Source: a virus
Length of the DNA stretch: 52,490 bases
Strand: one strand, 5' to 3'
IMG/VR virus record: IMGVR_UViG_3300021091_000107
Coordinates: 1 to 52,490 of that record
Shown here one piece after another: positions 39,127 to 48,971 of this stretch. Every line of letters starts with the position of its first letter. The stretch's first letter is position 1. A model generated the notes under the pieces. The model saw nothing but the letters and a program-made list of their open reading frames with translations, made no database searches and was not told the origin of the DNA. Both the position numbers and the translations under genes were made by a program.

Positions 39127-39878
39127 TGGCGATAACATATAATAATCAAATTAAACTGGATGGTTTAGTTTTATTACTAGATCCATATTTAACTTCATCA
39201 TACCCTGGTTCTGGATCAACCATAACTAACGCTATTACTGGAACATCAGCATCTCTGGTAACATTTAATTATGATGCAACTAATAAATTTTTTACAACAC
39301 CTAATGATGGAGATTTTTTTTATATCTCCGTGCCAGATTATTCTGAAATGACAAATGCTTTAAATAAAACTTCTGGCGGGTTTACTTTGATAGAATGGAT
39401 CAGAATAAATAATTTAACATATCCAAGAGCTGCCGCAGGTGGTAGATTTAATACTGGATATGGATCCACATCAACCAGAGGATTTGATTGGTGTCATGGA
39501 ACTAGCAATTTAACTTCAATAAGAATGTCTGGATCTGTTCCAGAAGTAAATCCATCTTCTGATCAATATGATTTCGATACAACTATTAATATTTCTGGTG
39601 CTGGATTATCATTAGGAACTTGGTTCCAAAGAGTATTGTGGTGGAATAGATCCACAAATACTCATGGAGCATACATAAACGGTGTTTCATATGGATCGGC
39701 TAGTCATAGTCAAGTTGCAGGATATTCGTTATTTAATGGAGGTGGAGCAACTTTTGGTACTCTATATGGTTGGTCTCATACTGGTGCAAGAGGTCCAATT
39801 TACTTATACAATTCTGTGTTATCAGATATCGATATCTATTTTAATTTTACCACCGTTAAGAAGAGGTTTGGAATCTAA
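39126..39878 (+). CDS. LamG/concanavalin-like lectin protein, copy 1
   Basis: ATG 39126 overlaps the previous TGA, and AGGAGG at 39113-39118 is well placed; a GTG at 39123 is less likely. The 250-residue protein looks like a concanavalin-type beta sandwich: L-D-G-L-V-L-L-L-D-P-Y near the N-terminus, G-G-F-T-L-I-E-W-I-R-I near residue 85, then L-W-W-N-R-S-T-N-T-H-G-A-Y-I-N-G-V-S-Y. It ends K-K-R-F-G-I, like copy 3. Such domains bind sugars, so a surface adhesin or fibre-tip role is likely. It is first of three tandem relatives, each joined by TAATG overlap. Confidence 0.75.
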   Translation: MAITYNNQIKLDGLVLLLDPYLTSSYPGSGSTITNAITGTSASLVTFNYDATNKFFTTPNDGDFFYISVPDYSEMTNALNKTSGGFTLIEWIRINNLTYPRAAAGGRFNTGYGSTSTRGFDWCHGTSNLTSIRMSGSVPEVNPSSDQYDFDTTINISGAGLSLGTWFQRVLWWNRSTNTHGAYINGVSYGSASHSQVAGYSLFNGGGATFGTLYGWSHTGARGPIYLYNSVLSDIDIYFNFTTVKKRFGI

Positions 39879-40648
39879 TGGCACTAGGACACGGATCCTC
39901 TATAATTGTTGATACTAGTTTATACAGTTGGTTTGATTTTACAAATGCTAACTCATACGTTGCACAAACAAACCAAGCTACAATTTATAGTTTGTTAAGT
40001 AATGGATATAATTGGAGCACTGCTAACTTTTCTGGAACTGTTAATACAACAACATATGGAACAATAACAAAAGGATTACTGTTTGATGGTAATGCTCAAA
40101 TGTTAACTCAAAATGGTGGTAATAGTTATTATTATGGTTGGGATCCAACAGGAACACATGGTACTCCAACTTTTACAAATGAAATGTGGGTATGGCCATA
40201 TGAAAATTCTGGAATGTTATTTACAAGACCTTGGAATGGTAATGGTAGATATAATTTTTGGATTTATCCAACTGGATTTTATATTGGTTCTGGTGGAACA
40301 CAATCATCATATCCAACATCGACTATGAGTTTTCCTGTCGATACTTCTACTCTAGGAAAACCATCACATATTGTTGTTTGGGGAAATCAAACTCAAGTTG
40401 GATACTACATAAATGGTGGGCAATATTCTGCTTTTCAAAACCATGGTATTACTGGCAGTGGAGATTTTTATGGTAATGGTATTGGAGCTGGATATATGAC
40501 ATTATATCCATATGGTCAAGGTTGGGCTGGCAATACTGGATTTGGTATTAATGGTGTTTTATATCAAGCAAGAGTTTATAATAGAGTTTTATCGTCAAGT
40601 GAAGTCAATAGAAATTTTGCAGCACATGCAGGGAGGTATGGATACTAA
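39878..40648 (+). CDS. LamG/concanavalin-like lectin protein, copy 2
   Basis: The 256-residue protein shares the family plan but is strongly diverged from its neighbours. It has L-Y-S-W-F-D-F-T-N-A-N-S-Y near residues 14-26, N-E-M-W-V-W-P-Y in the strand where copy 1 has E-W-I-R, then H-I-V-V-W-G-N-Q-T-Q-V-G-Y-Y-I-N-G-G-Q-Y and a terminal V-Y-N-R-V-L-S-S-S-E-V-N-R-N-F. The last part is the usual closing helix and strand of phage LamG domains. It is rich in Gly, Tyr, Trp and Asn. The start codon overlaps the stop of copy 1. Confidence 0.75.
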   Translation: MALGHGSSIIVDTSLYSWFDFTNANSYVAQTNQATIYSLLSNGYNWSTANFSGTVNTTTYGTITKGLLFDGNAQMLTQNGGNSYYYGWDPTGTHGTPTFTNEMWVWPYENSGMLFTRPWNGNGRYNFWIYPTGFYIGSGGTQSSYPTSTMSFPVDTSTLGKPSHIVVWGNQTQVGYYINGGQYSAFQNHGITGSGDFYGNGIGAGYMTLYPYGQGWAGNTGFGINGVLYQARVYNRVLSSSEVNRNFAAHAGRYGY

Positions 40649-41454
40649 TGGGAGCATACGCAGGAGCTAACAACTTAACTCAATATCCAGTATCTGTTAG
40701 CAATATCAGTAATTTAGTAACTGCAAACCTTCAGTTTTATTGGGATGCTGCTAGGACGCTATCTTTAGCGTCTTCTTCCAGTACCCAGTGGAATGATATA
40801 AGTGGAATTCAAAATAAACCATTTGCTTTGCGTGGCAATGGTTATGGGAATAATGGAGGTCAAGCGTTGTCTTCAATAACTTATAGTGAAGATGGTGGTG
40901 GTTCTTTATTGTTTGATGGAACAGATGATTTTGGAACTCTGGGAACTTCTGCCACACCAACGTCAAATTCTCCATATACAGCTGGATCAAATATTACTGT
41001 ATGTATTTGGATGAAAACTACAGACGGTGGAGATAAAGGTTTTTGGTCTCATTGTAATGGGGGACCAGTAAATTTATCTTATGGTATTGGTGGTGGCAAA
41101 ATGCGATATTGGTATTATACCGCTCCATGGCAAATCTTAGATAGTAATACTTCTATTATTGATGGAAATTGGAAATACTTAGTTTGGGCTAAATCAGGCA
41201 CAAATATGAAACAATACATTAATGGTTCCCTAGATAAAGATACAACTCTTGTTGGTAATGTTCAAGGGCCTTTATATAGTTTGGGTTCTAGATGGGGTCC
41301 ATGCAATTCTGATAGTTATGGTGCTGGCACTAATGGATCTGGAGGAAGTATCTTTACTGGAAACTTGGCAATCATGATGGCATATGATCGTCAACTTTCT
41401 CAAGCAGAAATTACCCAAAACTTTAATTCTCATCGAAATAGATTTGGCATATAA
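40648..41454 (+). CDS. LamG/concanavalin-like lectin protein, copy 3
   Basis: This 268-residue copy is the most typical of the three. It has L-Q-F-Y-W-D-A-A-R-T near residue 30, W-N-D-I-S-G, G-S-L-L-F-D-G-T-D-D-F-G, then I-T-V-C-I-W-M-K-T near residue 115, Y-L-V-W-A-K-S-G-T-N-M-K-Q-Y-I-N-G-S and a closing A-Y-D-R-Q-L-S-Q-A-E-I-T-Q-N-F. This order is that of LamG/Laminin_G_3 jelly rolls. It begins at a TAATG overlap with copy 2. A late promoter overlaps its stop codon and serves the next gene. Host glycan binding is the expected role; the target is unknown. Confidence 0.8.
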   Translation: MGAYAGANNLTQYPVSVSNISNLVTANLQFYWDAARTLSLASSSSTQWNDISGIQNKPFALRGNGYGNNGGQALSSITYSEDGGGSLLFDGTDDFGTLGTSATPTSNSPYTAGSNITVCIWMKTTDGGDKGFWSHCNGGPVNLSYGIGGGKMRYWYYTAPWQILDSNTSIIDGNWKYLVWAKSGTNMKQYINGSLDKDTTLVGNVQGPLYSLGSRWGPCNSDSYGAGTNGSGGSIFTGNLAIMMAYDRQLSQAEITQNFNSHRNRFGI

Positions 41455-41479: not shown

Positions 41480-43660
41480 ATGGCGAATTCTGATAAGGAT
41501 ATCCTTATAACGCCCAATAAAGGCACAACATCATTACCCGAACTTAGTTTTATCGGTCAAGTCAACTCACCGATCAAACTTCGTGTGCTTGATGATAACA
41601 CATTATCATTTGAAGGTTCTGCGGGTCAATTATTTTCTATCAATAATAATCTAACAACAGGAACGATCTTTGCAGCATCTGATGTTTCTGGTGTTCCATC
41701 AATTTCTGTAGATGCTGGAGGAGCAGTTAGACTAGCACCATTTAATGGATATACAACTATTGGAAATGGCGGTTTTGCAACAGATCGCCAGCTGGGTGTT
41801 CGTGGTTCGATTATAATTGGAAATCGCGGAACAAGCAGTGCCAGATTAGAATTTACAGAAATAGCAAATAGTGGTGCTAGCTTAACTGGAACTGCTCCTG
41901 TTTATATCCATTACGATGGTCCAAACTATAGTGATAACAATAACTATTTTGGAATTAATACTAACGGAACCGATCGATTAACAGTAACTTACGGCGGTGG
42001 AGTTGGCATCAATACAATTAATCCAAGAATGAGATTTCATCTTTTTGGTGGACACGGTGATACTTCATGGAGAATGACTTTACCTGCTGCCAATAATGGA
42101 GCAGGAACAGGTGACATCAGCTTGCAAGCTTGGGTTTCTGAACCTGGGATAACATGGGATGGCGGCGGCATTGGAATGAATGTCACAAATTATACTACTG
42201 CAGTATTTCCAACCAATACTAATGATTCATCATTAAATTATTTCCCCCGCCTCGCTTCTGGCATAGGACAATCTTACATTAGATTTGTTCCTAATGGTGG
42301 TAGAATGTTTTTTACCACTACTGATAATAATGGAACAACTTACCAAAACCAAATTCAAATGGGCGGTGGTTGTTTAGGTATTGGTAGTTTAAATACTTCA
42401 TATAAGTTAAATGTTGGCGGAGATATCAACTTCACAGGAAACCTGTATCAAGCAGGTTCAATCTTTAAAACACTCCCAACTCAAAATGCAACAACTGATG
42501 GTTCAGTTCTAAGAACTAGATTCAATCCTTCTACATCACAGTTTGAGGCATACTGGACCCATGATCTTGATGCTAACTATCGACTAGAAAATCCAGATCA
42601 ATGGTCATTCCGTTATATCATCAATAGAGGATATACAGTTGCTGGATATCAAAACGCAAACCCATGGAGAAATGGTAATAGAACTGCCCACCCATCAGAC
42701 GTAACAATTTCTCTTGGAGATGTTATTGATTATTCTGCGGCATATATTGGAGGATCGCATAACGGAGTAAATCTATTTGTTTATAACTGTTCTAACTCTT
42801 GGTTACCTGCTGCTTCTGCAACATGTTCCATGAGTATGATCACAGAAACAAATCGTGGTCTTAACTCATCGTGGAATGATACCAGAGCACGTTCATATTC
42901 TGGTGCTTGGATTGACTTTATGGGTAATCAGTGGAGAAACAATGCTGGTAGAAATAGAGCATATATTAGTTCTGGTAACGGTAATACTTCACGACATGAT
43001 TTGAATACCGAAGTTATGCTTTCGGAAATTAGTGGTAATATATTATATGTTTCTCACGCAGAAGGAGAGTTTTTTGCTTGGGTATCACAAGGTCAAAATA
43101 GATTTGAATTTTCAACAGAAACATATACTGCATGGTCAACATATTCAACAGCTCCTGGTTGCGATGGTATTAACAAACATCAGGCAACTAGAATTGGTTT
43201 CTTCTATTGTTCAGAAGGTGGCAATACTGATAGAAACGTAACTAAGAGAAGAGATAATGATGCTGTAGTTATCAGGTCTGGAATTCAAAAACCAGAAACA
43301 GGTGGAGAAGAAAACCTACATACTGGTATGAATAAAGGTTATTCTATTGGAAACTACAATTATGCTCAAAATAATAATGCTTGGATATTCAATTATTATC
43401 AAGATACTATTCGTTTTGCCGATGGAACTCTAACATATCGTAAGGGTATTCCTGGATCATCTTCTGGAACTGGTCAAGAAGGTGGAGATATGATGGGTGC
43501 TGGGGTTCCACCTAGAACTTATATGACTTATACTGGAGCAGCAAGTTTCCAAGTTGCACCTGGCACCGTGACATATGGTGGAAGTACTGGTGCTACTTTA
43601 CAACCTGGCGCTGGATTAGCAGACGGCACTGGATCCACTGGTGGAATTGGAACATACTAA
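41480..43660 (+). CDS. Tail fibre-like protein with Gly-rich tail
   Basis: The 726-residue protein has a short N-terminal domain (I-T-P-N-K-G-T-T-S-L-P-E-L near residues 11-23), a beta-rich body with fibre-type G-I-N-T-I-N-P-R segments near 175-182 and L-G-I-G-S-L-N-T-S-Y-K-L-N-V-G-G-D-I near 296-313, and a Trp/Asn/Arg-rich region near 370-560 that looks like a folded receptor-binding domain. The C-terminus is rich in Gly, Ser, Thr and Pro. It has its own late promoter. The two genes that follow may help its folding or attachment. A fibre or appendage role is inferred from the pattern and neighbours. Confidence 0.72.
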   Translation: MANSDKDILITPNKGTTSLPELSFIGQVNSPIKLRVLDDNTLSFEGSAGQLFSINNNLTTGTIFAASDVSGVPSISVDAGGAVRLAPFNGYTTIGNGGFATDRQLGVRGSIIIGNRGTSSARLEFTEIANSGASLTGTAPVYIHYDGPNYSDNNNYFGINTNGTDRLTVTYGGGVGINTINPRMRFHLFGGHGDTSWRMTLPAANNGAGTGDISLQAWVSEPGITWDGGGIGMNVTNYTTAVFPTNTNDSSLNYFPRLASGIGQSYIRFVPNGGRMFFTTTDNNGTTYQNQIQMGGGCLGIGSLNTSYKLNVGGDINFTGNLYQAGSIFKTLPTQNATTDGSVLRTRFNPSTSQFEAYWTHDLDANYRLENPDQWSFRYIINRGYTVAGYQNANPWRNGNRTAHPSDVTISLGDVIDYSAAYIGGSHNGVNLFVYNCSNSWLPAASATCSMSMITETNRGLNSSWNDTRARSYSGAWIDFMGNQWRNNAGRNRAYISSGNGNTSRHDLNTEVMLSEISGNILYVSHAEGEFFAWVSQGQNRFEFSTETYTAWSTYSTAPGCDGINKHQATRIGFFYCSEGGNTDRNVTKRRDNDAVVIRSGIQKPETGGEENLHTGMNKGYSIGNYNYAQNNNAWIFNYYQDTIRFADGTLTYRKGIPGSSSGTGQEGGDMMGAGVPPRTYMTYTGAASFQVAPGTVTYGGSTGATLQPGAGLADGTGSTGGIGTY

Positions 43661-43672
43661 TAGGAATCAAAA

Positions 43673-44464
43673 ATGGAAAGAGTTTATTACTTAACAAAAG
43701 ATACTTCATTATTTACTATCATATATGACCTTAGAGTTTTGAGATCGTTACTGAACTGGTATGCTATATCAATGCCAGTATCGGAAGAAATGATGTTCAA
43801 AGAAATCGTAAAAGGAAAATATTATCCACTAGATTCTGTAACAGGATTTAAAGGATTTAAAACTTTTGCTGATATTAGAGGAAAAATCAAAATCGTTGAA
43901 CAAGAAGCAAATGGCGAAGTAGTAGCTTTCCAGTCTGAAGGTGTTTACAATTCAGTAGAGGATAATCCTCAAGAAGGTGTCAAAAAAATTGTTCTTGACG
44001 TTGACGACGAAAGAAGAAATGCTGTCATTAACGCTATGAGATTAGTAGCTAAAGCAGTTATTGAAGAGGAATTTGATAAAAAGTTTATGGAGTTGGATAC
44101 TTCTTCCAATATGGAATCTTATACATTTGAACTTCAATACGAAGAGGCATTGTTGTACACTAAAGATAAAAATGCTGATATTCCTTTACTTACTGCTTTA
44201 GCAGAAGCTAGAGAAATATCTATAGATCAAATGGCAGATAAAATTATTTCTGCTAGAAATTGTTTTAAACAAAAAGTTACTTCTTTGCTTAAACAAATGA
44301 CAGAGATTAAGTTTAAATTTAAAAATGCCGCCACAATTCGAGATCTAAATAGATTATATGAAGATTATTTCAGTATTGCAATGCCAGAATCTCAAGCTAT
44401 TGAAGAAGGTAGAGTTGTTGATTTTAAACGTGTAGTTCCTGTAGGTATCGGATTGAATTTTTAA
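43673..44464 (+). CDS. Fibre-associated protein, possible assembly chaperone
   Basis: The first half of this 263-residue protein is mixed alpha/beta, and the second half is helical and charged. The helical part (S-I-D-Q-M-A-D-K-I-I-S-A-R-N-C-F-K-Q-K-V near residues 189-208, then A-A-T-I-R-D-L-N-R-L-Y-E-D-Y) resembles the A-x-x-x-x-L-A-x-K-I region of DUF4376-type proteins found beside phage fibre genes. That likeness is weak. The gene follows the fibre-like gene by 12 bases and precedes a coiled-coil gene. A fibre assembly chaperone is a reasonable guess only. Confidence 0.5.
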   Translation: MERVYYLTKDTSLFTIIYDLRVLRSLLNWYAISMPVSEEMMFKEIVKGKYYPLDSVTGFKGFKTFADIRGKIKIVEQEANGEVVAFQSEGVYNSVEDNPQEGVKKIVLDVDDERRNAVINAMRLVAKAVIEEEFDKKFMELDTSSNMESYTFELQYEEALLYTKDKNADIPLLTALAEAREISIDQMADKIISARNCFKQKVTSLLKQMTEIKFKFKNAATIRDLNRLYEDYFSIAMPESQAIEEGRVVDFKRVVPVGIGLNF

Positions 44465-44480: not shown

Positions 44481-45224
44481 ATGTTAAGTAAAGAAATTAT
44501 TTTAGAAAATGCTGTAAAATTTTCTACTGGTCAAACTGATTATCAAAATGAGAATTTTGTAATGAATTCTCATGTTACTAAATATCGTCAAGTTCGACAA
44601 GCGTTACTAGAAATTGAAAATCGATATCATGGTATTAGAAAAATTAAATTAGATGTTCGCAGAGACGAAATAAAAATTAAAGCACTTCAAAGAGATTTAG
44701 AAAAATGCGAAGATGATTTAGAAGCAGAACTTATTAAAATTGACATTGAAGATTTATTATCTGATAACGAAATTCGCAAAAGAAAATTATACAGACAAGA
44801 ACAAGAAATAGATGTTTTTGTCAACCGTGTTCAGCAAGAAGTTGAAAATGAAGAAGATATTCAAAGATACTTCGACCAAGATCCAGAAGAAGAAAGGAAG
44901 TATTGGATTGCTCGTATGGGCAAACAAGCTGCAATGGATATTCTTTCCTTCGGAAGAATTAGCACTGGCAATTTAGATTCAATTGCCATGCTTCCAGAAG
45001 AAGAACAACTGCAAATTCTTTCAATTGGTTTTCAATACTCAAATCTTCTTGGAGGTCAATTAGCTAAAATTGAAGGAACTACTAGAGAATACACACAGCA
45101 ATTATTGGCAGATCCAAAAAATCTTCGTCTTCCAACTTTTGATGGCATAGAAGATAACATGCAACTAAAGATGATTAATTCACTCAAAGAAATTGTGGAG
45201 AAGAAAAAATTGAAAGGTAATTGA
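44481..45224 (+). CDS. Charged coiled-coil protein of unknown function
   Basis: The 247-residue protein is highly charged. A long central helix with coiled-coil character (residues about 55-125, with K-A-L-Q-R-D-L-E-K-C-E-D-D-L-E-A-E-L) leads to a region with Y-W-I-A-R-M-G-K-Q-A-A-M-D-I-L near residues 135-152 and G-R-I-S-T-G-N-L-D-S. Similar proteins are conserved in cyanomyoviruses, but I know no function. It has the strongest ribosome site in the window and ends one base before the first oxygenase-like gene, so it may belong to that operon. Confidence 0.6.
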   Translation: MLSKEIILENAVKFSTGQTDYQNENFVMNSHVTKYRQVRQALLEIENRYHGIRKIKLDVRRDEIKIKALQRDLEKCEDDLEAELIKIDIEDLLSDNEIRKRKLYRQEQEIDVFVNRVQQEVENEEDIQRYFDQDPEEERKYWIARMGKQAAMDILSFGRISTGNLDSIAMLPEEEQLQILSIGFQYSNLLGGQLAKIEGTTREYTQQLLADPKNLRLPTFDGIEDNMQLKMINSLKEIVEKKKLKGN

Positions 45225-45225
45225 T

Positions 45226-45975
45226 ATGAATGAAAATTTTTGGGATTATAGTGTAAATGAAAGTAAAATTGAATTGAATAATGTTCATAGTATTTTCTCG
45301 ATACCTCTTTTTGAAAGCACTATAATGGTTTCTAATTTTGAAGAAATCATGAATGATTTGACAGCAAAATATAATTCTACTGACAACGAAGAATTATTAT
45401 CTTCATATGGTTCTGTTCTTTCATCATCTGAAGCAGCACAACAAAACAACGTGTCTGTTAGAAATTCTATTTCATATTACAGTGAAGATACTTTACACAC
45501 AAACAAAATTTACGAAGAATTAACTGCATCAATAGAATCTGTAACAAAAAATATTTTTGATCTTTATGAGTATGATTCTATTACCCCACATGTTGTTACA
45601 ATGTGGGGTAATGTTTTAGGAAACAAGGGATATATTCATTCACATTCACATAGTAATTCTATGTTTTCTGGTGTTTGGTATCCAGAAGATCCTCCAGAAA
45701 CAGAAGAAGGTTCACTATCAAATTATATTAAATTTACCGATCCAACCAGAATTAAATTTTTCTTCATGCCACAAATTAAAAGAAAAAATGCTTTGAATTC
45801 TGGAGAAATTTTTATCAAACCAAAGAAAGGAATGTGTCTCATTTTTCCTTCTTGGTTAGAGCACGATACTATTGCAAACGACAATTTGCACGATAAAAGA
45901 TATAGTATTTCATTTAACATTTTCCCCAAAGGAACTTTAGGTTATCCAAATTCATTAAATCGTCTTGTCTTATGA
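45226..45975 (+). CDS. 2OG-Fe(II) oxygenase-like protein (TIGR02466 type), copy 1
   Basis: The 249-residue protein has the plan of the putative 2OG-Fe(II) oxygenases of TIGR02466/PF13759. H-S-H-S-H at residues 138-142 precedes S-G-V-W-Y, the likely metal end of the first strand. L-I-F-P-S-W-L-E-H-D follows, with H213 as the probable distal ligand. R-Y-S-I-S-F-N-I-F-P then supplies the likely 2OG-binding Arg. Such enzymes couple 2-oxoglutarate and O2 to hydroxylation; the substrate is unknown. The HxH pattern replaces the classic HxD, as I recall for this family. The next gene is a relative and overlaps it by four bases. Confidence 0.75.
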   Translation: MNENFWDYSVNESKIELNNVHSIFSIPLFESTIMVSNFEEIMNDLTAKYNSTDNEELLSSYGSVLSSSEAAQQNNVSVRNSISYYSEDTLHTNKIYEELTASIESVTKNIFDLYEYDSITPHVVTMWGNVLGNKGYIHSHSHSNSMFSGVWYPEDPPETEEGSLSNYIKFTDPTRIKFFFMPQIKRKNALNSGEIFIKPKKGMCLIFPSWLEHDTIANDNLHDKRYSISFNIFPKGTLGYPNSLNRLVL

Positions 45976-46622
45976 GCACTCTTGAAATATTTCCGCAAGC
46001 TATCGGAAAATATTCCTTTGATTATGAAAGCAGAATTAAAATTAAAGATATCTGTTTTAAGATAATCAAAGAGAATCATTTTTCTAAAAATAAAGATAGT
46101 AATAATTTATATCATTATTGTAACACTAATCACGAAAATCTATTAGACTTAAAAGAATTTGATTGGTTTGAAGAAAAAATCTCAAACCTTGCTGTAGATT
46201 ACATTGAAAACACTTTGGGTTATGAACTAAAAGATGGTGTTGTCATTACTGATTGTTGGATGAATTTGTGTCAAAATAATGGAGATCAGTTTTTACACAA
46301 TCATGGCAATTCATTTGTTTCTGGAACATACTATGTCAATTTTAATCCAGATATTCATGGTAAATTAAAATTTCAAAATCAAAATACGACATCAGGAATG
46401 CATTCTTCTCCATATATTGAACTAACAATTAAAAAGAATACTAAGTATAATTCTGGTGGAGCAATAATGAATTACAATGAAGGGGATGTATTGTTTTGGC
46501 AATCCCATTTAATTCATGGATACGATGGAAACAATTCTGATAATCGTGTCAGTATTTCGTTTAATATTATGCCTAGATATTTCTATAATAATTCATATTC
46601 ATTTAAGGTGGTTAGAGAATGA
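45972..46622 (+). CDS. 2OG-Fe(II) oxygenase-like protein (TIGR02466 type), copy 2
   Basis: This 216-residue relative of the previous protein keeps L-H-N-H-G-N-S-F-V-S-G-T-Y-Y with His at residues 109 and 111. It also keeps D-V-L-F-W-Q-S-H-L-I-H-G with distal His 182, and N-R-V-S-I-S-F-N-I-M-P-R with the likely 2OG Arg. The copies share the order but little sequence elsewhere, so they may act on different sites or as partners. ATGA overlaps join it to both neighbours. The substrate is unknown. Confidence 0.75.
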   Translation: MSTLEIFPQAIGKYSFDYESRIKIKDICFKIIKENHFSKNKDSNNLYHYCNTNHENLLDLKEFDWFEEKISNLAVDYIENTLGYELKDGVVITDCWMNLCQNNGDQFLHNHGNSFVSGTYYVNFNPDIHGKLKFQNQNTTSGMHSSPYIELTIKKNTKYNSGGAIMNYNEGDVLFWQSHLIHGYDGNNSDNRVSISFNIMPRYFYNNSYSFKVVRE

Positions 46623-47287
46623 TACTCATAGAGAATAATTATCTGGAAAGAGTTTGTAAAATTAATCCAGAAGCAAAAATAGAAGATGTTGTTTATGATG
46701 GTGTTAAATTTAAATGTATCAAAAATTTTTTACACAATCCAGATGAATATGTTGAGTTAATACAAAAATTTCCAGCAACTAGAGACCACACTTATTCTCC
46801 TGGTTTCAGGCAAGATATTCCACCTTGGGCAGCTAGATTTATTACACTATTCATTCAAGAACATGTAGGAGAATGGAAACCTGCTAGAGTTTCTTGTAAC
46901 ATATACAGTGGTGATATGTTAATGAAAGAGCATTCTAATCTTCCACATTCTGATCCTTTTTATGGGGTTTGGAACTTATGGTTCAATAAAAAAACTTTGG
47001 GAGGAACTGCTTTTTGGTCATACAGAAATAAACTTCATGTAGATGAATTATCAGAAGAAGAATATAACCATTTATTTGAAAAACCTCTTTCTGGAATTGG
47101 TTATGAAAAATGGAGAAACTTTAGGGGTGATGAAGATTGGCAGATGACATGCATTGCTCCTATGGAATTTAACACACTTTTATTTTATAATGGTGGATTT
47201 TTTCATTCTCCTTGGATTCAAGAGAACTGGTATTTAAACGAGCATAGATATAGTATGGTTGGAATGGGAGATTTTGAAAATGTTTAG
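46619..47287 (+). CDS. DUF6445-like 2OG oxygenase-fold protein
   Basis: The 222-residue protein has an N-terminal helical part with F-L-H-N-P-D-E-Y-V near residues 37-45. It then has the oxygenase-style core: L-P-H-S-D-P-F-Y-G-V-W with His 110 and Asp 112, then L-G-G-T-A-F-W near residue 126, and F-F-H-S-P-W with His 196, followed by H-R-Y-S-M-V. This H-x-D ... H ... R order is that of 2OG-Fe(II) enzymes, and the L-W-F-N-K-K-T-L-G-G-T-A context fits the DUF6445 type. It is the third oxygenase-type gene in a row and overlaps the fourth gene by eight bases. Activity is inferred. Confidence 0.7.
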   Translation: MILIENNYLERVCKINPEAKIEDVVYDGVKFKCIKNFLHNPDEYVELIQKFPATRDHTYSPGFRQDIPPWAARFITLFIQEHVGEWKPARVSCNIYSGDMLMKEHSNLPHSDPFYGVWNLWFNKKTLGGTAFWSYRNKLHVDELSEEEYNHLFEKPLSGIGYEKWRNFRGDEDWQMTCIAPMEFNTLLFYNGGFFHSPWIQENWYLNEHRYSMVGMGDFENV

Positions 47288-48971
47288 TCTACCTATCAAT
47301 CCAAAGATTGATGAAAATTTTGCCAATAATATTCTCATTCCTTTTTTACAGAAACACAAACAATATATTTTTGATCTCTACTTCACATGTAGGATGCCTC
47401 CGTTTATGCAGGATGCCATGGGTGATGTGTTTGAGGATGATCTCAGACAGACAACATTCAACGCTCTATACATTCAAAAACAAACTGGTATTCCTCTGTC
47501 TGCTACGTTCAACAATCCATACGTCAGACCTACACAAGAGAACCTAGATCTATTCATCAATAACTTCAGATACATCTATGAAGCAGGTGTAAGAACTGTC
47601 ACGTTGCCCCATACATCATGGATGCTAACAGGTCAGATACAGAAAGCATTTCCTGAACTGTATATCAAGAATACTATTCTACATGAAGTTACAAAAGCAA
47701 ACGATATTGTTTCTCTTGCCAAAGCTGGATTTAATTATATTAATCTTGATAGAGATCTGATGAGAGATCAAGATCAGTTACGTCGTCTAAAAGAAGCAAA
47801 AGAATATTGTGCTTCGATTGGTAATCCAGTTAAATTCTCCATGCTTGCCAATGAGGGATGCTGGGGTGGATGCCCTATTATGCCAGAGCACTATCACTAT
47901 AATAACACCAGAGAGAACCACGAACCACCATACTTTGGCAATATCATCAGTAGAGTTTCGTGTTCTAAGTGGGAGCAGCAAGATAGCTCTGCTGTTCTTA
48001 AGTCAGCAAATCTCCCACCTTGGAAAAAGGATTGGGAAGAGATGTTTGATCTAGGTATTGATGTATTCAAATTACACGGAAGAGAAAGCGTAATGCGTCT
48101 CAAAGAAAGTATGGATATTATTGAACGCTGGGCGAATGATGAAGAACTTCTATTCCCAGAACTCAATACCTATATTGAAGACAAGAGTTTGAAAGATAGA
48201 CCAATTGATATTTGGAGAGAAAAGATCAAAACTTGTAAGTTTGATTGTTGGGATTGTAATTACTGTGAGGCAGTTATTGAGGCACATCATAAGAAGCAAG
48301 ACAGAACACTACATCCACTTGTCAAACTGACACTTGATGCGATTGATAAATCAGCAACAGGTGATACTAACTTCAAACCACAAGGTTTCAATATTGAAGG
48401 TCTATCATCGGATCGTGTCAGACATTTTCTAAATCATCTATGCTCTGATCCAAAGAACTCATATCTTGAGATTGGATGCTATACAGGCAGCACATACTTT
48501 GCTGCCATTATGGGTAATGATTTAGTATCATATGGCGTTGATAATTTTGTTGCTCCTATCGCTCCTGCTAGAGATGATATCGAGTGGAAAGGAGTTGAAG
48601 ATCCATCAAAAGAATTGTTTAGAAATAATGTCTTGTTTGGCAGTTTAAAATCTGCTATAATTGATATTGATGCTCGCAAACTAAACTCATCTCATTTTAC
48701 CAGAAGACCAAATATTGTATTCTATGATGGAGAGCACGACGATCAACAGGTAGAATGTTTATCTAACTTGCTTCCAAACCTACAGGATACTTTTATATTA
48801 GTTTTGGATGATGCCAATTTTGATGGGGTTATCCGTAATGGGCAGAAATTTATAGATATAAATAATTTCGAAGTTCTGTTTGAACGTCAAATACTGACAC
48901 CTCAAATAGAAGATTCCACAAGCTGGTGGAATGGTTTGGCAATTTATGTATTAACAAAAACGGAGAATTGA
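47280..48971 (+). CDS. Peptidase-U32-like Fe-S protein fused to a methyltransferase-like domain
   Basis: ATG 47280 is chosen because GGGAG (47266-47270) is nine bases upstream; a TTG at 47259 is less likely. The product has 563 residues. The N-terminal part resembles the U32 TIM-barrel family: C37, S-M-L-A-N-E-G-C-W-G-G-C with C194 and C198, C228, and V-F-K-L-H-G-R near residues 261-267, like the family K-I-x-G-R. A second cluster, C319, C323, C326 and C329, follows. The part near residues 395-563 looks like a class I SAM methyltransferase: Y-L-E-I-G-C-Y-T-G-S-T, then F-Y-D-G-E-H and L-D-D-A-N-F-D-G. U32 proteins UbiU/UbiV, RlhA and TrhP act in hydroxylation. Substrate here unknown. Confidence 0.7.
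   Translation: MFSLPINPKIDENFANNILIPFLQKHKQYIFDLYFTCRMPPFMQDAMGDVFEDDLRQTTFNALYIQKQTGIPLSATFNNPYVRPTQENLDLFINNFRYIYEAGVRTVTLPHTSWMLTGQIQKAFPELYIKNTILHEVTKANDIVSLAKAGFNYINLDRDLMRDQDQLRRLKEAKEYCASIGNPVKFSMLANEGCWGGCPIMPEHYHYNNTRENHEPPYFGNIISRVSCSKWEQQDSSAVLKSANLPPWKKDWEEMFDLGIDVFKLHGRESVMRLKESMDIIERWANDEELLFPELNTYIEDKSLKDRPIDIWREKIKTCKFDCWDCNYCEAVIEAHHKKQDRTLHPLVKLTLDAIDKSATGDTNFKPQGFNIEGLSSDRVRHFLNHLCSDPKNSYLEIGCYTGSTYFAAIMGNDLVSYGVDNFVAPIAPARDDIEWKGVEDPSKELFRNNVLFGSLKSAIIDIDARKLNSSHFTRRPNIVFYDGEHDDQQVECLSNLLPNLQDTFILVLDDANFDGVIRNGQKFIDINNFEVLFERQILTPQIEDSTSWWNGLAIYVLTKTEN
48857..48864 (+). promoter_or_regulatory. Intragenic late promoter box
   Basis: An exact TATAAATA lies near the 3' end of the U32-methyltransferase gene, about 113 bases before the next gene. 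It could start a transcript for that small gene. A chance match is possible. Confidence 0.35.

Follow-up and report, generated by a model that had tools for sequence, protein, structure and literature searches.

What does a series of enzyme genes do between the fibre and neck genes of a cyanophage, and with which of its neighbours does it belong? The question was raised by a 52,490-base virus record of IMG/VR (the window, meaning the whole stretch analysed), which we place among the T4-like cyanomyoviruses because of its PAAR spike protein, its long fibre-like open reading frames (ORFs), its neck and tail-completion proteins gp13, gp14 and gp15, and its relatives. Four ORFs lie in series at 45226–48971, all on the plus strand with overlaps of 4–8 bases, and purifying selection acts on all of them. 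An earlier reading of this DNA (the original prediction) had correctly described four overlapping genes and had taken them for a cassette between fibre and neck genes; the flanks are as it stated, but two genes, g352 and g353, intervene on the fibre side and belong to the conserved unit. We found that this unit is not the four-gene cassette, but consists of a fibre gene with a predicted kelch propeller, g352, g353 and the last of the four ORFs, which encodes a U32-like/methyltransferase fusion protein (47280–48971, plus strand).

Co-inheritance of fibre, g353 and the fusion gene

The gene order in IMG/VR is fibre (phrog_1417), g352, g353, fusion gene, p580 and then the neck genes. In the window, the fibre protein (726 aa; 41480–43660; phrog_1417, 3e-106), g352 (263 aa; 43673–44464; phrog_10301/1604) and g353 (247 aa; 44481–45224; phrog_1409, 2e-72) are all encoded on the plus strand. 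Synteny was counted in the 91 viral loci having at least 6.5 kb upstream of the fusion gene. The fibre gene and g353 were found upstream in every one of these (91/91) and g352 in 86, whilst no module gene out of 542 lay on the opposite strand. The predicted link to fibres is therefore far stronger than had been proposed. Across 50,697 phage records, the fibre domain, g353 and the enzyme each occurred in 123, with the same breakdown by organism (77/38/8) and near-identical host lists, from which we infer that the three sets are identical. Since gp15 is found in at least 438 records with the name Synechococcus phage or Cyanophage, the fibre–g353–enzyme trio is an optional yet indivisible unit that is gained and lost together. 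In a second lineage (L142–L166), whose enzyme is 42–47 % identical, the order of g353 and g352 is swapped, and the enzyme often comes after a tandem array of two or three kelch-fibre paralogues.

The same co-inheritance data could also be explained if the group travels with the fibre as a host-range block, its enzymes modifying glycans or lipids on the host surface to aid release or to exclude superinfection, so that enzymes and fibre both concern the receptor. Methyltransferases of the Methyltransf_24/TylF type, to which we assign the fused domain below, act on sugar and small-molecule hydroxyls, which suits this explanation, as does the presence of 2-oxoglutarate (2OG) oxygenase genes near fibres in phages without the trio: S-SM1 has several of them after its fibre genes, yet neither the fusion gene nor the trio. 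Such a block would, however, predict a looser linkage than that observed, since g353 and the kelch domain are linked as strictly as the enzyme, and the unit contains no glycosyltransferase or lipid enzyme. We consider this explanation decidedly unlikely.

The fusion protein and its cysteines

The fusion protein matches phrog_1458 (E 5e-230), the function of which is annotated as 'unknown'. Its gene most likely starts at the ATG at 47280 rather than at the listed TTG at 47259, because a GGGAG lies upstream and close relatives begin with MFSLPINPK at that methionine; residue numbers given here count from the listed TTG. From IMG/VR and phage genomes we gathered 210 near-full-length relatives, with a mean identity to the window member of 65 % in the N-terminal and 40 % in the C-terminal domain. 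Seven cysteines, and no others, were invariant in all 210: C201, C205 and C235 (47859–47963), and the group C326-x3-C330-x2-C333-x2-C336 (48234–48266), which follows the barrel; both sets lie within the N-terminal domain (47280–48308). This domain resembles a (beta/alpha)8 barrel in the confident AlphaFold2 model of the fusion (mean predicted local distance difference test score, pLDDT, of 82), where its eight strands alternate with helices; the cysteine loops 201–206 and 233–248 are modelled at low confidence. The invariance of the seven cysteines suggests that they hold one or more iron–sulfur (Fe-S) clusters. The ratio of non-synonymous to synonymous substitution (dN/dS) of the enzyme was 0.055–0.067, comparable to that of a neck protein.

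The protein is present in 123 isolate or genome records and in at least 490 viral contig stretches, where it is listed as hypothetical; the cyanobacterial viruses that carry it include marine as well as freshwater ones. In Prochlorococcus phage P-SSM3 (L005, 6974–8688) the gene is unannotated and split into two frames, as it is in a second locus (L198, 957–2687); breakage and sequencing error are both possible for each. A search for cellular homologues with two exact 8-residue motifs, which divergent relatives would escape, returned two genome matches (L090 and L091), from metagenome-assembled genomes labelled Dehalococcoidia and Euryarchaeota. We rejected both as cellular homologues, as they appear to be contigs of phage origin that were binned into cellular genomes; L090 and the IMG/VR contig of L193 are each 10,153 bases long. 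In the open literature, subscription journals lying outside the search, we found no paper on the fusion protein or on phage U32 enzymes and no described protein of such architecture. New here are the fusion of recognisable superfamilies, the cysteine arrangement and the obligate partner.

Relationship of the barrel to U32 proteins

HMMER searches with Pfam, NCBIfam and PDB sequences gave no match for the barrel. The U32 model PF01136 matched none of 64 diverse members, and a PF01136 search of the window genome was empty, with control genomes positive. We then compared profiles, using a U32 profile made up of Escherichia coli UbiU, UbiV, TrhP and RlhA and 37 PF01136-containing proteins of other genomes. 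In hhalign, the phage N-terminal-domain profile matched it with Prob 95.7, P 9.3e-9 and a score of 69, and the alignment was collinear over barrel strands 3 to 8. By comparison, 120 block-shuffled decoys reached at most 34.2 and the reversed profile 15.9, whilst the same comparison gave 18 with ThiC, 13 with AP endonuclease 2, 14 with DHDPS and 31 with radical S-adenosylmethionine (SAM) proteins; the U32 profile is deeper than these TIM-barrel control profiles (effective sequence number 6.4 vs 2.7–4.4), which may favour U32 somewhat. In shallower attempts, thin profiles reached only Prob 6, and single-sequence templates ranked TrhP first and another U32 protein second of 315, weakly. As the library searches were empty and the deep profile alone was decisive, acceptance of 'U32' from motifs alone was rejected.

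On this profile evidence, we assign the N-terminal domain as a remote homologue of the U32 proteins and not as a canonical member. In addition to the homology over strands 3–8, it shares with the U32 hydroxylases (TrhP, RlhA and UbiU/UbiV) cysteines after strand 7, where ANEGC aligns with U32 GALC one residue out of register and C235 aligns with TrhP C197, and a K-x-x-G-R motif after strand 8, where FKLHGRE aligns with KIEGR (sfKIEGR). It differs from them in the missing PF01136 match, the second cysteine group, a serine at position 194, the fused methyltransferase and, in our searches, its restriction to phages. The original prediction of a U32-type Fe-S protein thus stands as regards remote homology, but library models, cysteine spacing and a key glutamate (considered below) do not conform, and the Fe-S assignment derives from the cysteines. 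The PDB contained no sequence relative of TrhP, and a fold search with the barrel was dominated by methyltransferase matches; in BFVD, a 'Peptidase' of Escherichia phage OLB35 resembled the fusion protein (E 1.4e-8; template modelling (TM) score 0.70 by target).

CX3CX2C is the radical SAM motif, and ThiC uses a C-terminal motif of its own. As CX3CX2C is present in the C-terminal cysteine group, the barrel could instead use a SAM- or other radical-generating cluster at CX3CX2CX2C, in a ThiC-like manner, on a protein or cell-surface molecule. The profile's only short radical SAM match (23 columns, score 31) falls at CX3CX2C, and the lysine aminomutase barrel of Pfam is matched weakly (E 0.001). 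On the other hand, no Radical_SAM (PF04055) or ThiC family match was found in any of the 64 members, both families scored well below U32 in the profile comparison, and the motif lies after the barrel, whereas radical SAM proteins carry it after strand 1. These controls led us to reject radical SAM and ThiC as homologues of the barrel, and lysine aminomutase alongside them, although lysine aminomutase itself was not profiled. Because of the CX3CX2C tail, radical chemistry in place of hydroxylation is kept as a rival, and a very unlikely one.

The methyltransferase domain

The C-terminal domain (48393–48959) carries the motif E/D-x-G-x3-G together with D428, D490 and D517-D518. PF13578 was found in 33 of 36 members (best E 7e-13) and PF05711/TylF in one; the window member alone scored 16.3 bits, below the curated cut-off of 26.3. 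Foldseek matched the predicted domain to the O-methyltransferase 5x7f (E 1e-7). By sequence and predicted fold the domain is thus a class I SAM methyltransferase of the Methyltransf_24 type, in agreement with the methyltransferase-like fusion originally proposed. It shares with Methyltransf_24/TylF-type enzymes a glycine-rich SAM motif and acidic DG/DD motifs, and differs from them in being fused behind a U32-like barrel. In metal-dependent O-methyltransferases of the TylF/CmcI type, aspartates bind the metal and the substrate; we take the four conserved aspartates of the phage domain to resemble these.

A hydroxylase-like barrel joined to a methyltransferase also raises the possibility of RNA modification, in which the protein would be TrhP and TrmR in one polypeptide. 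Late in infection, it would hydroxylate and then O-methylate a base of tRNA or rRNA, whether of the host or of the phage, and its proximity to the fibre would be incidental. Two characterised members of the U32 family, RlhA and TrhP, have RNA as their hydroxylation substrate; the ho5U34 that results from this first step is, in Gram-positive bacteria, then O-methylated by TrmR (PMC6599085). Furthermore, RNA methyltransferases are among the fold neighbours of the fused domain, as is a viral protein with the name tRNA mo5U34 methyltransferase, although these neighbours are unspecific. The essential glutamate of TrhP is not conserved, and strict co-occurrence with the fibre domain and g353, upstream in all loci with room, would be unexpected for an RNA enzyme. 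A role in RNA modification therefore appears unlikely.

The fibre protein and its partners

The C-terminal domain of the fibre protein (42452–43657) is predicted to fold as a kelch-type beta-propeller that leads into a glycine-rich, disordered tail (AlphaFold2, pLDDT 78, predicted TM score 0.73). The best PDB matches in Foldseek were kelch propellers, with E about 1e-12 (Keap1 1u6d, 3e-12, TM 0.76) and TM 0.7–0.79 by target. The predicted fold therefore resembles that of Keap1 and the KLHL proteins; unlike these, the domain is barely detected by kelch sequence models (Kelch_4 in two of 56 members, E 0.03). It is plausible that the propeller at the fibre end is the receptor-binding tip. The fibre diverges faster than the enzyme (dN/dS 0.28–0.29), such that a constant enzyme is paired with a varying fibre partner.

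Protein g353 contains a strongly conserved motif, EExxYWIARMGKQAAxDIxxxGRIxxGNxDSI. Ahead of the kelch fibre, at 39878–41454, lie two consecutive small proteins with laminin-G/concanavalin-like domains, which are likely further adhesins.

The oxygenase genes

The first two of the four ORFs (45226–45975 and 45972–46622) match PF13759 (E 3e-20 and 6e-17, respectively), and score 85.4 and 78.8 bits with TIGR02466 against a cut-off of 62.5. Their HxH, later H and R (H140-x-H142...H213...R225 in the first, H109-x-H111...H182...R192 in the second) are 97–100 % conserved in 105 related phage oxygenases. Both therefore pass the curated cut-offs and keep the metal-site and 2OG residues expected of the TIGR02466-type 2OG-Fe(II) oxygenases predicted here; prolyl hydroxylases, by contrast, have HxD...H. 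Oxygenases of this kind (phrog_81) are common in cyanomyoviruses, and the window pair is unusual only in its position. The third ORF (46619–47287) matches DUF6445 (PF20043; 37.3 bits, cut-off 24), and PHxD...H...R is invariant in its 21 relatives (H110-x-D112, H196 and R210 in the window protein). This is the arrangement of 2OG-Fe(II) oxygenases and accords with the predicted oxygenase-type protein. For the same reason we rejected the 'minor coat protein' label of phage DUF6445 proteins (phrog_1644), which is probably wrong, an enzyme being the more likely identity.

Among the 51 loci with room on both sides, 2OG genes lay near the fusion gene in 33 and DUF6445 in seven. The second 2OG protein has relatives in 107 phage records, the make-up of which differs from that of the trio, whilst DUF6445 is not tied to fibres, its gene in Syn9 adjoining psbA without the fusion gene. 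The gene order of the window recurs in seven whole-block loci, some of these being one contig in overlapping copies; a comparable series (2OG-2OG-DUF6445-2OG) is present in S-ShM2. The oxygenase genes are thus real but optional members around the fusion gene. The survey of cyanophage co-occurrence and order that had been suggested as a check accordingly separated the two groups, the enzyme–fibre–g353 linkage being upheld and the oxygenase linkage not. A single four-gene operon as the functional unit, pairing two hydroxylation chemistries, was rejected by synteny, as the oxygenase genes come and go and also occur without the fusion gene.

Promoter and terminator scans gave nothing convincing. 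Elsewhere in the window, a small ORF at 611–1012 has a signal-peptide-like start (MKKLLCAALGFAMMPSAVFA) and no family match.

Proposed function of the unit

The constant enzyme and its varying fibre, the obligate linkage to fibre and g353, the remote U32 homology and the methyltransferase domain together lead us to favour, tentatively and with somewhat less than even confidence, the reading that the fusion protein is specific to phages and serves to modify the adjoining kelch-propeller fibre, or g352/g353. In such a scheme, g352 and g353 may present or assemble the fibre. C201, C205 and C235, located where barrel strand 7 ends, the site of the cluster in U32 proteins, and the C326–C336 group would hold one or two Fe-S clusters. 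The U32-like barrel would add an oxygen function to a residue of the fibre, consuming no O2 and possibly using prephenate, as TrhP and RlhA do, and the fused domain would then O-methylate the newly oxidised residue. The 2OG and DUF6445 oxygenases could add further, optional hydroxylations, varying the fibre surface among phages. Taken in full, with a divergent, virus-specific U32-type Fe-S domain hydroxylating a residue of the kelch tip without oxygen, the fused domain O-methylating it and the optional 2OG oxygenases adding marks, the scheme is rather unlikely.

There are precedents for individual steps. U32 members precede methyltransferases in known pathways (PMC6747719, PMC6599085); UbiUV with UbiG and TrhP with TrmR are separate hydroxylase-then-methyltransferase pairs, which the phage version would, by analogy, join in one chain. 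TrhP and RlhA require prephenate, a compound proposed to donate the oxygen (PMC6599085, PMC10470549). Chemistry independent of O2 would be odd in an oxygen-producing host unless darkness or a competing need for O2 matters, but may be possible, given the report that UbiUV activity consumes no O2 even under air (PMC10470549).

Several observations count against modification of the fibre. TrhP E162, essential together with C170 and C177 and with E161 as its RlhA counterpart (PMC6599085), aligns with Ser194, which is nearly invariant in the phage family. The canonical U32 [4Fe-4S] motif CX6CX15CX3/4C (PMC6747719) is replaced by CX3C-X29-C plus CX3CX2CX2C, and the chemistry may differ. Because of this serine and this spacing, hydroxylation by the U32-like domain is put forward by analogy only. 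The most conserved residues of the fibre (GY, GEEN, QNN and S662) include candidate sites, none of which is singled out, and the genes could be linked to the fibre because they move as a single host-range block, not because enzyme and substrate are paired. Moreover, to our knowledge, the characterised U32 enzymes all act on RNA or quinones and never on proteins.

Implications

The fold, the cysteine set and the obligate fibre partner make the function of a long-hypothetical protein directly testable. Should the full scheme prove correct, U32-type chemistry would extend to proteins, on which no enzyme of that type is so far known to act, and phage receptor-binding proteins would for the first time be linked to a hydroxylation/methylation pathway. 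Cyanophage 2OG oxygenases have so far been tied mainly to nitrogen stress or DNA repair (PMC3037559), and some of the many would gain a concrete candidate role if the fibre is the substrate. In that case, host recognition by these phages would rest on enzymatic chemistry in addition to sequence.

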